From: Nocardia ninae NBRC 108245
GTDB taxonomy: Bacteria; Actinomycetota; Actinomycetes; Mycobacteriales; Mycobacteriaceae
Direction of reading: 5' to 3'
DNA length: 46,985 nt
Assembly: GCF_007990755.1 (NCBI RefSeq)
Contig: NZ_BJXA01000073.1
Coordinates: 1-46,985, forward strand
Program-made: the position numbers and the translations under genes
Notes under the pieces: generated by a model
What the model was told of the DNA's origin: nothing
The model's input: the letters and a program-made list of their open reading frames with translations, nothing else
Databases searched by the model: none
Part shown: piece by piece, positions 8,182 through 13,280 of the stretch
Layout of the letters: each line of letters begins with the position of its first letter
Numbering within the stretch: position 1 is the stretch's first letter

Positions 8182-9113
8182 CAGAAGTAGCCCTCTCGTT
8201 TGCGATCTTCCATGCCCGCCTCGGAGATTCGATCGTCGGCGCGGGTGGCGCCACGCTCGGTGACCCGGGCCGCGGCCACCTCGGTGACCACCTCGGCGGG
8301 GGTGGCCGCGGTCGACTCCACGCAGCCGGTGCAAGTGGCGTCGCCGACCGTGCGGAATCGCACCGTGGTCTCGTGCGGCTGCTCGCCGTCGAGGAGTTGC
8401 AGGAAGCGGGTGTGCGCCAACAGCATTCCGTCGCGCTGCACCACCGGGCGGCGATGCGCGTAGTAGAGCGGCGGCAGGTCGATGCCCTCGGCGGCGATGT
8501 AAGTCCAGATGTCGAGCTCGGTCCAGTTGGACAGCGGGAACACCCGAATATGTTCGCCCGCACGGTGTTTGCCGTTGTAGAGGTTCCACAGTTCCGGTCG
8601 CTGGCTGCGCGGATCCCACTGGCCGTACTCGTCGCGGAAGCTGAATACCCGCTCCTTGGCGCGGGCCTTCTCCTCGTCGCGGCGCGCGCCACCGAAGACC
8701 GCGTCGAAGCCGCCCTCCTGGATCGACCGGAGCAGCGTGGTGGTCTGCAATCGGTTGCGGGAGGCGCGCGGCCCGGTCTCCTCGACCGCCCGGCCCGCGT
8801 CGATGTCGTCCTGCACGCTGCCGACCACCAGCCGCAGCCCGAATCGCGCGACCGTCTCGTCGCGGAAGGCGATCACCTCGTCGAAGTTGTGTCCGGTATC
8901 AATGTGCAGTACCGGGAACGGCAGCGGCGCGGGCCAGAAGGCCTTGGCCGCCAGGTGCAGCATCACCACCGAGTCCTTGCCGCCGGAGAACAGCAACACC
9001 GGACGTTCGAAAGTTGCCGCTACTTCACGGAATATATGTGCCGACTCGGCCTCGAGCACGTCCAGATGGGGTAGCTCGTAGGTGCTCGCCGTCGACTTCG
9101 CGTACTGGCTCAC
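8181..9113 (-). CDS. cysD: Sulfate adenylyltransferase subunit 2
   Basis: A 310-residue PP-loop ATP pyrophosphatase, the catalytic small subunit of ATP sulfurylase. Diagnostic segments are the PP-loop FSGGKDSVVMLHLA, HIDTGHNFDEVI, FGGARRDEEKARAKERVFSF, WTELDIWTYI and the C-terminal ISEAGMEDRKREGYF, close to the mycobacterial protein as I recall it. The start is a GTG at 9113 that overlaps the end of the IclR gene by 4 nt (GTGA). Its stop overlaps the cysNC start. So iclR-cysD-cysNC reads as one translationally coupled unit. A near-match to a KstR-type palindrome lies just upstream (9124-9137), inside the IclR coding end. Confidence 0.95.
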   Translation of the reverse strand: MSQYAKSTASTYELPHLDVLEAESAHIFREVAATFERPVLLFSGGKDSVVMLHLAAKAFWPAPLPFPVLHIDTGHNFDEVIAFRDETVARFGLRLVVGSVQDDIDAGRAVEETGPRASRNRLQTTTLLRSIQEGGFDAVFGGARRDEEKARAKERVFSFRDEYGQWDPRSQRPELWNLYNGKHRAGEHIRVFPLSNWTELDIWTYIAAEGIDLPPLYYAHRRPVVQRDGMLLAHTRFLQLLDGEQPHETTVRFRTVGDATCTGCVESTAATPAEVVTEVAAARVTERGATRADDRISEAGMEDRKREGYF

Positions 9114-10042
9114 ACCGCAAAACTAGAACACGTTTCGGTCGTTGGCAACAGCTCGCCGGGGCTGCGGGCGGGTTTGCGCCCGCCCGACGCGGCGGTCACC
9201 GCGTCCGCCGCCGCGACCAGTGCCGTTCCGCGCCGGTCGATTTCGGCACCGGTGATGGACGCGCCGACATACATGGTCAACACCATGTTCTGCCTGCCGT
9301 CGCCGCCGTAGGTCGGTGCGGCGAGCAGGCTGACCGGGTGCTCCTTGCGTGGCCGCAGATCCGTGCCGAGGTACACCCGCTCGCCGAGGCTGGTGACCAG
9401 CTCGCCGACCAGTTCGCGCAGCTCATCGGGGAGATCGTGGGCGGCGAAACCGGCCAGCATTGAGTACAGCCTGCGGCCCGCCGCGGTGAGACTCTCCACC
9501 AGATAGCCGCGCTCGCGGCATTCGGCGACCACCTGCCGCAGCCGCGCCTCGTCCTGCTGCAACGGCACCGTCGAGGGCTTGGTCAGCCAAGCGTCGAACG
9601 CCGCGTCGGTGTCCCACAGCACGTACATCAGGCCGACCGGCGGCGCGAAGTGGTAGGCCGCGCCCACCTTGACCATCCCCGGCCCGGTGCTCTCCAGGAC
9701 CATGATCTGCTCGCCGACCACGGCGGATGCGGTGCAGGTGGTGCGGTATCGCGCGGTGAGTCGCTCCAGCTCGGCGCGGGCGAGCGCGGAGATGGCGAAG
9801 CTGTCCTGGGCGACCCGGCCCGCGGCGATGAGCGCGGGGCCGAGGCCGTAGGTCAGGGTGTCGGCGTCGCGCACCAGATAGCCGCCCGCGGTGAGCTCGG
9901 TGAGGATGCCGAGACAGGTCGGTTTCGCCAGGTCCAGCGCCCGCGCCAGCTCGGACAGGCCGAAGCGCTTGCCGCGCTGCTCGACGAGGAAATCCAGTAC
10001 CTGCACCACCCGCACCGTGGGTGCGGATCTACGGCCGACCAT
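9110..10042 (-). CDS. IclR-family transcriptional regulator
   Basis: A 310-residue regulator. The N-terminal winged helix-turn-helix is VRVVQVLDFLVEQRGKRFGL, then SELARALDLAKPTCLGILTE, followed by the wing (GGYLVRD). A C-terminal IclR effector-binding (GAF-like) domain of about 170 residues follows. The ATG at 10042 is 10 bp from a perfect KstR-type palindrome. The stop overlaps the GTG of cysD by 4 nt, which is unusual: the regulator is the first gene of the PAPS-synthesis operon. It is divergent from the DUF1214-SDR-sulfotransferase genes. IclR proteins commonly sense small acids or aromatic metabolites. It could control both arms, but the effector is unknown. Confidence 0.88.
   Translation of the reverse strand: MVGRRSAPTVRVVQVLDFLVEQRGKRFGLSELARALDLAKPTCLGILTELTAGGYLVRDADTLTYGLGPALIAAGRVAQDSFAISALARAELERLTARYRTTCTASAVVGEQIMVLESTGPGMVKVGAAYHFAPPVGLMYVLWDTDAAFDAWLTKPSTVPLQQDEARLRQVVAECRERGYLVESLTAAGRRLYSMLAGFAAHDLPDELRELVGELVTSLGERVYLGTDLRPRKEHPVSLLAAPTYGGDGRQNMVLTMYVGASITGAEIDRRGTALVAAADAVTAASGGRKPARSPGELLPTTETCSSFAV
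9124..9137. promoter_or_regulatory. Near-match to KstR-type operator before cysD
   Basis: TAGAACACGTTTCG matches 7 of the 8 fixed positions of the palindromic consensus TNNAACNNGTTNNA; only the last A is replaced. It lies inside the 3' end of the IclR gene, 11 bp upstream of the cysD GTG. It shares the 9-mer GAACACGTT with the perfect site at 10053-10066. Its location suggests an internal control point for cysD-cysNC, but it may be coincidental coding sequence. Confidence 0.35.
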
Positions 10043-10052
10043 TGACCACTCC

Positions 10053-12076: not shown

Positions 12077-12110
12077 CCGGGTGCGGCTGGCTCGCACCAC
12101 TATTGAGGAG

Positions 12111-13280
12111 ATGACGTTGATCGGTAGGGACGATGTCGGGACCATCGATGATCTGCATGCGTCGGCGACCAAGGTCGTCGGGCTGGACGATTTCGGGGCC
12201 GACGACTACCGCGCCGGGCTCGAAGTACTGCTCGAGTCCTATGCCAAGGATGCGGAGCTGACGCCGTTCGGCAACAAGGTGAATCGGGCCTTCCTGCGCG
12301 GGGCGCTGATCGCCCGGCTGCTCAGCGAGGCCGCGTGGCAACGCTTTCCGGAGCACGCCGAGGTGGCGATCGAGCGGCCGATCTTCGTGACCGGGCTACC
12401 GCGCTCCGGCACGACGGCGGTGCACCGGCTGCTCAACGCGGACCCGGCGCACCAGGGTTTGGAGATGTGGCTCACCGAGATGCCGCAGCCGCGCCCGCCG
12501 CGCGAGACGTGGGCGAGCAATCCGGTGTACCAGCGGATCGAGGCTGCGTTCGAGCAGCAGCACGTGGAGCATCCGGAGTTCATGGGCGTGCACCACATCT
12601 CCGCCGACCAGGTGGAGGAGTGCTGGCAGCTGCTGCGGCAGTCCGCCATGTCCGTGTCCTACGAGTGCCTGGGCTACCTGCCCACCTACTCCGAGTGGCT
12701 GCGCGAGCAGGACTGGACTCCGGCCTACCGCAGGCATCGGCGCAACCTGCAGTTGATCGGCCTGCCGGACGCCGGACGGCGCTGGGTGCTGAAGAATCCC
12801 AGCCATTTATTCGCACTCGATGCCATTTTCGCGGTGTATCCGGATGCGCTCGTCATCCAGATGCATCGCGATCCGCGAACCATCATCGCCTCGGTGTGCA
12901 GTCTCAACGAGCAGGCGTCGGCGGGCTGGTCCGACAAGTTCCGCGGCTCGGTGGTCGGCGCCGGCCAGTTGGATTTGTGGGCACGCGGCGCCGATCGCTT
13001 CCTGGCAGACCGCAAGCGGCACAATGCCGCCCAGTTCTGCGACGTCGACTACGACGACTTCGTTGCCGACCCGATCGGCACCGTCGCCTCGATCTACCGG
13101 CATTTCGACCTGCCACTGACCGAGGAGGCGACCGCGGCGATGGCGGCGCTGCACGCCGAAAGCACCTCCGGGGCGGCCCGTCCTGCGCACCGCTACACCC
13201 TCGCCGACTTCGGCCTCACCGCCGAGGAAGTCGACGAACGGTTCGCGGCGTATCGGGAGGCGCACTTCCCGGGGCGTTGA
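12111..13280 (+). CDS. PAPS-dependent sulfotransferase family protein
   Basis: About 389 residues, Sulfotransfer_3 type. The 5'-phosphosulfate loop is FVTGLPRSGTTAVHRLL (about residues 86-102) and the 3'-phosphate-binding segment is QMHRDPRTIIAS (about 245-256), both PAPS contacts. It also has the family's WVLKNPSHLFALD and CDVDYDDFVADP. It would move a sulfuryl group from PAPS to a hydroxyl or amine. The start is uncertain: GAGGAG abuts the ATG at 12111, so the TTG at 12117, six bases from that ribosome site, may be the true start. It is the last gene of the operon facing cysD-cysNC, whose product is the PAPS donor. The acceptor is unknown. Confidence 0.88.
   Translation: MTLIGRDDVGTIDDLHASATKVVGLDDFGADDYRAGLEVLLESYAKDAELTPFGNKVNRAFLRGALIARLLSEAAWQRFPEHAEVAIERPIFVTGLPRSGTTAVHRLLNADPAHQGLEMWLTEMPQPRPPRETWASNPVYQRIEAAFEQQHVEHPEFMGVHHISADQVEECWQLLRQSAMSVSYECLGYLPTYSEWLREQDWTPAYRRHRRNLQLIGLPDAGRRWVLKNPSHLFALDAIFAVYPDALVIQMHRDPRTIIASVCSLNEQASAGWSDKFRGSVVGAGQLDLWARGADRFLADRKRHNAAQFCDVDYDDFVADPIGTVASIYRHFDLPLTEEATAAMAALHAESTSGAARPAHRYTLADFGLTAEEVDERFAAYREAHFPGR

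Follow-up and report, generated by a model that had tools for sequence, protein, structure and literature searches.

Dedicated sulfation systems that keep their own donor-making enzymes are exemplified by rhizobial nodPQ and nodH, in which a second set of ATP sulfurylase and adenosine 5'-phosphosulfate (APS) kinase accompanies its own sulfotransferase (ST) in Nod-factor sulfation. The described KstR-controlled degradation of steroid rings, by the hsa and ksh genes, contains no sulfation. In Mycobacterium tuberculosis, stf0–stf3 have been reported (PMC3141025), and Rv3529c–Rv3531c appear in a table of cholesterol genes as a conserved hypothetical, a possible oxidoreductase and a hypothetical protein (PMC6429209). 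The motif at Rv3531c/Rv3532 was positive for KstR in electrophoretic mobility shift assays, the KstR palindrome being given as TAGAAC(N2)GTTCTA (Kendall et al. 2007, PMC1995591). Here we describe a locus of Nocardia ninae NBRC 108245 that brings these elements together. It lies in a stretch of 46,985 nt (GCF_007990755.1, contig NZ_BJXA01000073.1, positions 1 to 46,985, forward strand), referred to as the window, and we take it, with a probability of roughly 70%, to be a sulfation branch of steroid catabolism that depends on 3'-phosphoadenosine 5'-phosphosulfate (PAPS) and is controlled by KstR and probably by an IclR-type regulator. Like nodPQ–nodH, it keeps a dedicated donor-making set with its own sulfotransferase; it differs in its link to KstR sites and to steroid catabolism, and in having an ST of the Sulfotransfer_3/STF1 type.

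The locus consists of two divergent arms around a shared control region. The cys arm, on the reverse strand, begins with iclR (9110–10042; HTH_IclR 31.4 bits, cut-off 22, with no match to the effector domain listed up to E 5), followed by cysD, encoding the small subunit of sulfate adenylyltransferase (8181–9113; TIGR02039 462 bits, cut-off 396.6), and cysNC, a fusion of the GTPase subunit with APS kinase (6346–8181; PRK05506 959 bits, cut-off 715; APS_kinase 226 bits). The ST arm, on the forward strand, comprises ORF387, a two-domain protein with a TTG start (10137–11300), a short-chain dehydrogenase/reductase (SDR) of the PRK07890 type (11300–12076; 394.6 bits, cut-off 258; best solved relative 3ucx, E 1.2e-79), and a PAPS-type sulfotransferase matching the full Sulfotransfer_3 profile (12048–13280; 206 bits, cut-off 27). 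The junctions are tightly coupled: GTGA at 9110–9113 between iclR and cysD, TGATG at 8179–8183 between cysD and cysNC, and TGATG at 11298–11302 between ORF387 and SDR. The gene set, order and junctions given by an initial reading of the DNA (the first-pass annotation) were all located. The range it assigned, 9110 to 13280, holds iclR and the ST arm and leaves cysD and cysNC outside, at 6346–9113. It had also placed the module under the IclR regulator, which is indeed the first gene of the cys arm, and missed a KstR-type operator between the arms, the tie to steroids and the spread outside Nocardiaceae. The part it gave the SDR, preparing or oxidising the hydroxyl, is a guess.

This operator, TAGAACACGTTCTA at 10053–10066, is a perfect match to the published palindrome, and it is here that KstR would be expected to bind, as it does the M. 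tuberculosis Rv3531c/Rv3532 motif (PMC1995591). The KstR regulon form TnnAACnnGTTnnA is thereby present at the ST-arm promoter, and the operator overlaps a candidate promoter on the forward strand (10042–10070), recognised by eye as a −35 element TTGACC (10042–10047), a spacer of 17 nt and a −10 element TAATCT (10065–10070); a sigma-70 consensus scan over 6000–13600 found no promoter. Across 200 loci carrying ORF387, 156 sites of the form T..AAC..GTT..A were counted within 300 bp upstream of the gene, distributed over 150 loci, against 2.0 expected from the remainder of the same loci; such a site precedes ORF387 in 71 of 80 named loci and 79 of 120 family loci. An imperfect KstR-like site with an AACnnGTT core also lies at 9124–9137, inside the 3' end of iclR and 24 bp before the start of cysD. 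In 65 of the 146 loci with divergent arms, the best KstR-like site no more than 60 bp from cysD has 3 mismatches or fewer, over a background of about 1.4%. KstR itself is encoded elsewhere in the genome (C110; NF033703 335 bits, cut-off 280), where the palindrome TAGAACNNGTTCTA has nine exact copies. One of these adjoins kstR and an acyl-CoA dehydrogenase-like gene, and another lies between a gene for an Rv3520c-type F420 enzyme and the acyl-CoA-ligase-like gene behind it.

A second palindrome between the arms, TGTACC-N5-GGTACATATTTGGAACA at 10085–10112, is probably the operator of the IclR regulator. The 130 bp upstream of ORF387 contain the element GGTAC in 125 of 139 loci with a divergent IclR gene and in 4 of 61 without, and the full GTACC-N3-7-GGTAC in 63 of 139 versus 1 of 61, the motif having been picked post hoc by inspection of the same sequences that were counted.

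A tie to steroid catabolism is seen in loci where cysDNC is not adjacent. Steroid-catabolism relatives (HsaA/B/C, KshA, FadA5, a P450 and lipid-transfer thiolases (ltp), at set identity thresholds) are held by 26 of 42 loci without an adjacent cysDNC, namely 22 of 38 with no cysDNC and all four with cysDNC about 6 kb off, and by none of the 158 loci with an adjacent cysDNC, in the stretch read. In four genera (g9, g11, g13, with one locus, and g18) the triplet ORF387–SDR–ST stands directly 3' of hsaB. The identity of these neighbours was confirmed with equivalog models in several loci: HsaA (703.6 bits, cut-off 450) and HsaB (303.3 bits, cut-off 230) in L158, HsaA in L209, and HsaC in L157 (554.5 bits, cut-off 450). 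KstR-type sites precede hsaA in all 17 hsa-linked loci; the triplet shares both its operator type and, in these genera, its position with the genes of ring degradation. Four g11 loci hold hsa genes, triplet and cysDNC within one 17 kb stretch, and in Haloechinothrix (L081) the triplet adjoins the gene of a steroid 3-ketoacyl-CoA thiolase (690.8 bits, cut-off 515).

The same tie is seen at the level of whole genomes. Among 301 genomes, 229 have both ORF387 (E 1e-40) and HsaC (E 1e-90), none has ORF387 alone, seven have HsaC alone, one of them (G047) counted on a weaker HsaC match, and 65 have neither; a Fisher value overstates this evidence, because the 301 genomes belong to one family. Counted by genus (n = 30), ORF387 is present in 20 and HsaC in 21. 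HsaC was also found in 31 of 31 genomes from non-Nocardia named loci, versus 0 of 14 control genomes, the search having taken 31 of the 33 such loci (L062 and L078 were left out).

The donor side of the module was compared with the second sulfate locus of the genome (C59), in which a cysD 65% identical to that of the window lies beside cysH. A 431-aa CysN-like ORF at this locus has no APS kinase match, and the genome's CysH carries CC..RK, which we take to mark the APS-reductase type; cysteine supply should therefore not need PAPS. The genome's one strong APS kinase match (229.8 bits) is the CysNC of the window, which makes the module the only evident PAPS source in this genome; a second match, at C29, reached 25 bits (E 1e-4), over the curated cut-off of 21.1, with 60 of 104 first-look candidates scored. 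Strong APS kinases are likewise confined to the module in 28 of 47 module genomes tested, the window's genome included, and all 47 have at least two cysD. The first-pass annotation had proposed a dedicated sulfation pathway with its own donor synthesis, and this is supported: the cysDNC of the window is accompanied in the genome by the cysD and CysN-like ORF beside cysH, and the ST arm stands next to cysDNC in 72 of 80 named relatives. An ordinary assimilatory locus can be ruled out for the cys arm, since cysH lies with the other cysD and the module CysD clusters apart.

The separation of the CysD copies is evident both in identity and in phylogeny. Relative to the window copy, module copies are 75–100% identical and other copies in module genomes 49–66%, and the unlinked CysD of three mycobacterium-like genomes are 75–76% identical. 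The module copies also group together in a 60-row tree, where they require 2 label changes versus a shuffled mean of 19.1, although they do not form one clean clade; 14 assimilatory-type CysD, including the second copy of the window's genome, form a branch of their own with support of 100/100, and the unlinked mycobacterium-like CysD join the second copies weakly (81/82). Of 161 loci with a CysNC match, 73 have a CysQ-like gene directly 3' of cysNC; the window has none there. Two such genes scored 78.7 and 96.5 bits against TIGR01331, below its cut-off of 228.8, and in the relatives carrying one the product could clear 3'-phosphoadenosine 5'-phosphate (PAP).

The sulfotransferase is the genome's only strong Sulfotransfer_3 match (207 bits), one more (C18) scoring 37 bits over a cut-off of 27. 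It aligns over residues 27–401 with Protein Data Bank entry 2zq5 (E 7.4e-168), which we take to be M. tuberculosis Stf1, that is Rv3529c. Its start may be ATG 12111 instead of 12048, since the alignments of many relatives begin only at about residue 20–30. It contains TGLPRSGTT, presumably the PAPS-binding 5' loop, LKNPSH, K249 and H253, as well as R274 and S282, an Arg...Ser pair eight apart that we assume to be the 3' site of PAPS-dependent sulfotransferases. R274, S282, K249 and H253 are at least 99% conserved among STs with an adjacent cysDNC, and TGLPR[ST]GTT, LKNPSH and the Arg–Ser pair eight apart are found in nearly all of 198 STs, whether cysDNC is adjacent or not; comparison of the PAPS motifs between these two groups of the 198 revealed no clear difference. 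These features suggest that the enzyme transfers sulfate from PAPS. A search for PF09037 found nothing in the genome, but it was equally without a match in the controls and so does not demonstrate that the family is absent.

ORF387 scored 15.6 bits against Pfam DUF1214 (PF06742), below the curated cut-off of 25, and is therefore ruled out as a plain member of that family. Its predicted fold is that of a distant relative of VPA0106/VPA0735, which we take to be DUF1254/DUF1214 proteins, and supports a distant link to DUF1214 proteins; to this extent the earlier label "DUF1214-like" was apt.

The module is far from a Nocardia oddity, a reading that is ruled out by relatives in further genera and in Pseudonocardiaceae. 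A contig scan with ORF387 gave at least 582 relatives, with 80 named loci among the matches listed. A further 120 regions from 118 family genomes (G046 and G062 twice) were hand-picked among the listed matches of 229 genomes; this is a non-random set, from which most close Nocardia were dropped as duplicates of named loci. Gene maps of several loci came from a simple GC-based caller, with some genes missed or misplaced. Among the 80 named loci, 72 have a divergent cysDNC adjacent to the ST arm, 79 an ST and 78 an SDR, and two of the eight that lack cysDNC are contigs clipped near the gene. The 120 family regions divide into 74 divergent, 12 co-directional, four with cysDNC about 6 kb off and 30 with none. 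In total, the divergent pair that the first-pass annotation had suggested seeking in other Nocardiaceae is kept in 146 of the 200 loci, in Nocardia, other genera of its family and beyond, in Pseudonocardiaceae, which exceeds what chance would give. The second architecture, cysD–cysNC–ORF387–SDR–ST in one direction, is found in 12 loci, all Nocardia (L132, L133 and ten others); those inspected have, divergent to cysD, a distant IclR-like gene (about 30%).

A matching divergent iclR (at least 40% identity) is adjacent in 139 of the 200 loci. Every one of the 14 named divergent loci that lack the IclR gene has a SnoaL-like match, as do 14 divergent loci that have this gene; a SnoaL_4 (NTF2-fold) gene was confirmed just before ORF387 in L068 (7500–7979) and L081 (7460–7948). 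In a tree of ORF387, 11–13 changes of linkage label are required (starred branches force 8–10), which indicates that linkage to cysDNC has been gained or lost repeatedly. The whole module is present twice in G046 (L130/L131) and G062 (L145/L146), one copy having a KstR-type site before ORF387 and the other lacking it.

Together, these data allow a mechanism to be proposed. Sterol catabolites would release KstR from 10053–10066 and so permit transcription of both arms, with the IclR regulator probably acting at 10085–10112. CysD and CysNC would convert sulfate and ATP to APS and then PAPS, from which the ST would transfer the sulfuryl group to a steroid, or a compound derived from one, at a hydroxyl, and the SDR and ORF387 would prepare, bind or process this substrate. 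The acceptor is likely steroid-derived. Our guess is a secosteroid of the HsaABC step, phenolic or catecholic, whose sulfation would protect the cell, like a safety valve, from the toxicity of catechols; the guess stems from the placing of the triplet by the hsa genes and from an hsaC mutant that loses viability on cholesterol, an effect attributed to catechol toxicity (PMC2652662).

Two other roles for the ST, both unlikely, have to be weighed. In the first, sulfation is a chemical activation on an obligatory route: the ST would make a sulfate leaving group of a steroid hydroxyl for elimination or displacement, with SDR and ORF387 catalysing the flanking steps. The constancy of the triplet suits such a route, as the ST lies downstream of ORF387 in 198 of the 200 loci and an SDR was detected in 190, and the presence of ORF387 in 229 of 236 HsaC genomes is high for a mere safety valve. 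The ten loci with no SDR detected beside ORF387 at the threshold used speak against it, and we know of no unassigned hydroxyl removal in the characterised cholesterol route that could be named.

The second, which we consider about equally improbable, is that the module serves biosynthesis, its product being a sulfated lipid or sterol that is exported or placed on the cell surface, with KstR control only signalling that sterols are available. A precedent for sulfolipids exists in the same family: in one genome (L257, G281) another cysDNC pair lies beside the trehalose 2-sulfotransferase Stf0 (NF047724, 451 bits). This pair resembles that of the window in adjoining a sulfotransferase; it differs in that the ST is of another family, its CysD groups with second copies, and its 12 kb stretch showed no triplet. 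The 12 co-directional Nocardia loci without the full KstR core would also fit a biosynthetic role, which is opposed by the position of the triplet behind hsa genes in four genera (g9, g11, g13, g18) and by the occurrence of HsaC in every sampled genome having ORF387. Least probable is that the cys arm supplies PAPS for general use and adjoins, by chance of regulation, an ST-like protein without sulfotransferase activity, for although the weak C18 match and the APS kinases outside the module in other genomes would allow this, the triplet-linked CysD of two gene arrangements group with module copies, not assimilatory ones, and the ST hardly varies at its PAPS-site residues.

Returning to a sulfation branch of steroid catabolism, several observations count against it. 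The gene set, the conservation of the operator, the linkage to steroid genes and the logic of PAPS supply are established at the level of sequence; the binding of KstR and IclR, the sulfotransferase activity and a steroid-derived acceptor are inferred, and the known steroid pathway needs no sulfation. Genome-wide, the palindrome at up to one mismatch has 23 sites versus 12 for the backwards pattern, about twofold, and is therefore weak evidence taken alone, its weight resting on conservation in place; for most of the nine exact copies no tie was made to sterol genes. Directly before ORF387, a KstR-type site is lacking in all 29 loci of ORF387 clade II, 17 of which carry one before hsaA instead, and a search for a shared palindrome before these 29 genes gave nothing convincing. 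KstR control is not universal, since no full KstR core lies 400 bp or less from cysD in the 12 co-directional Nocardia loci, two of which have near matches (L238, 1 mismatch; L135, 3 mismatches). On the donor side, another strong APS kinase is present in 19 of the 47 module genomes, and the mycobacterium-like (g28) loci differ from the window in having no linked cysDNC in any of the six read. Sixteen of the 38 loci with no cysDNC hold no steroid genes either in the available stretch, some of which are clipped, and shared descent inflates all locus and genome counts.

The first-pass annotation knew of no described pathway with this exact set of genes, and no published description was found in the one open literature collection searched, where most hits were judged unopened; the term "sulfotransferase" was absent in searches inside PMC4810484, PMC5380842 and PMC7593942. 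The ST arm nevertheless seems to be in print, as the apparent counterpart of Rv3531c–Rv3530c–Rv3529c, through the likeness to 2zq5 and the annotations, the Rv sequences not having been compared by name. What seems new here is the set formed by a donor-supplying cysDNC and an STF1-type ST arm, the apparent M. tuberculosis counterparts of the ST-arm genes having been printed previously without a function.

Further genes were noted in the window. On the 3' side of the ST are a 4HBT thioesterase (13460–14302, reverse strand) and a HAD phosphatase (14335–14991, forward strand), which recur nearby in many named Nocardia loci. More distant are a sigma-70-type (ECF-like) factor with DUF6596 (18745–20172, reverse strand), a cytochrome P450 (20578–21927, forward strand) followed by a 1062-aa ORF (21994–25182, forward strand), and an ORF with GT20 and sugar-phosphatase domains (36646–38793, forward strand) that resembles a fused trehalose-phosphate synthase/phosphatase and has a fucose-isomerase-like ORF nearby (34076–35590).

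Bacterial cholesterol breakdown draws close study because host sterols sustain pathogens and because industry relies on these bacteria for making steroid drugs. ORF387, the marker of the triplet, is present in nearly all HsaC-bearing genomes sampled, and no published function was found for the triplet; the PAPS supply linked to it under the same operator type indicates that the chemistry to look for is sulfation. Sulfated intermediates may evade methods aimed at CoA thioesters or free steroids, so mass spectrometry can test the idea. A broader proposal, which we put forward tentatively and at somewhat less than even odds, is that sulfation is a near-universal and overlooked part of the aerobic 9,10-seco pathway in these actinobacteria, in which a phenolic or catecholic secosteroid or another ring intermediate would be sulfated, reversibly or protectively, by an STF1-type enzyme, many lineages having a dedicated, KstR-controlled supply of PAPS. 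If true, this would assign a role to Rv3529c–Rv3531c, orphan genes bound by KstR.

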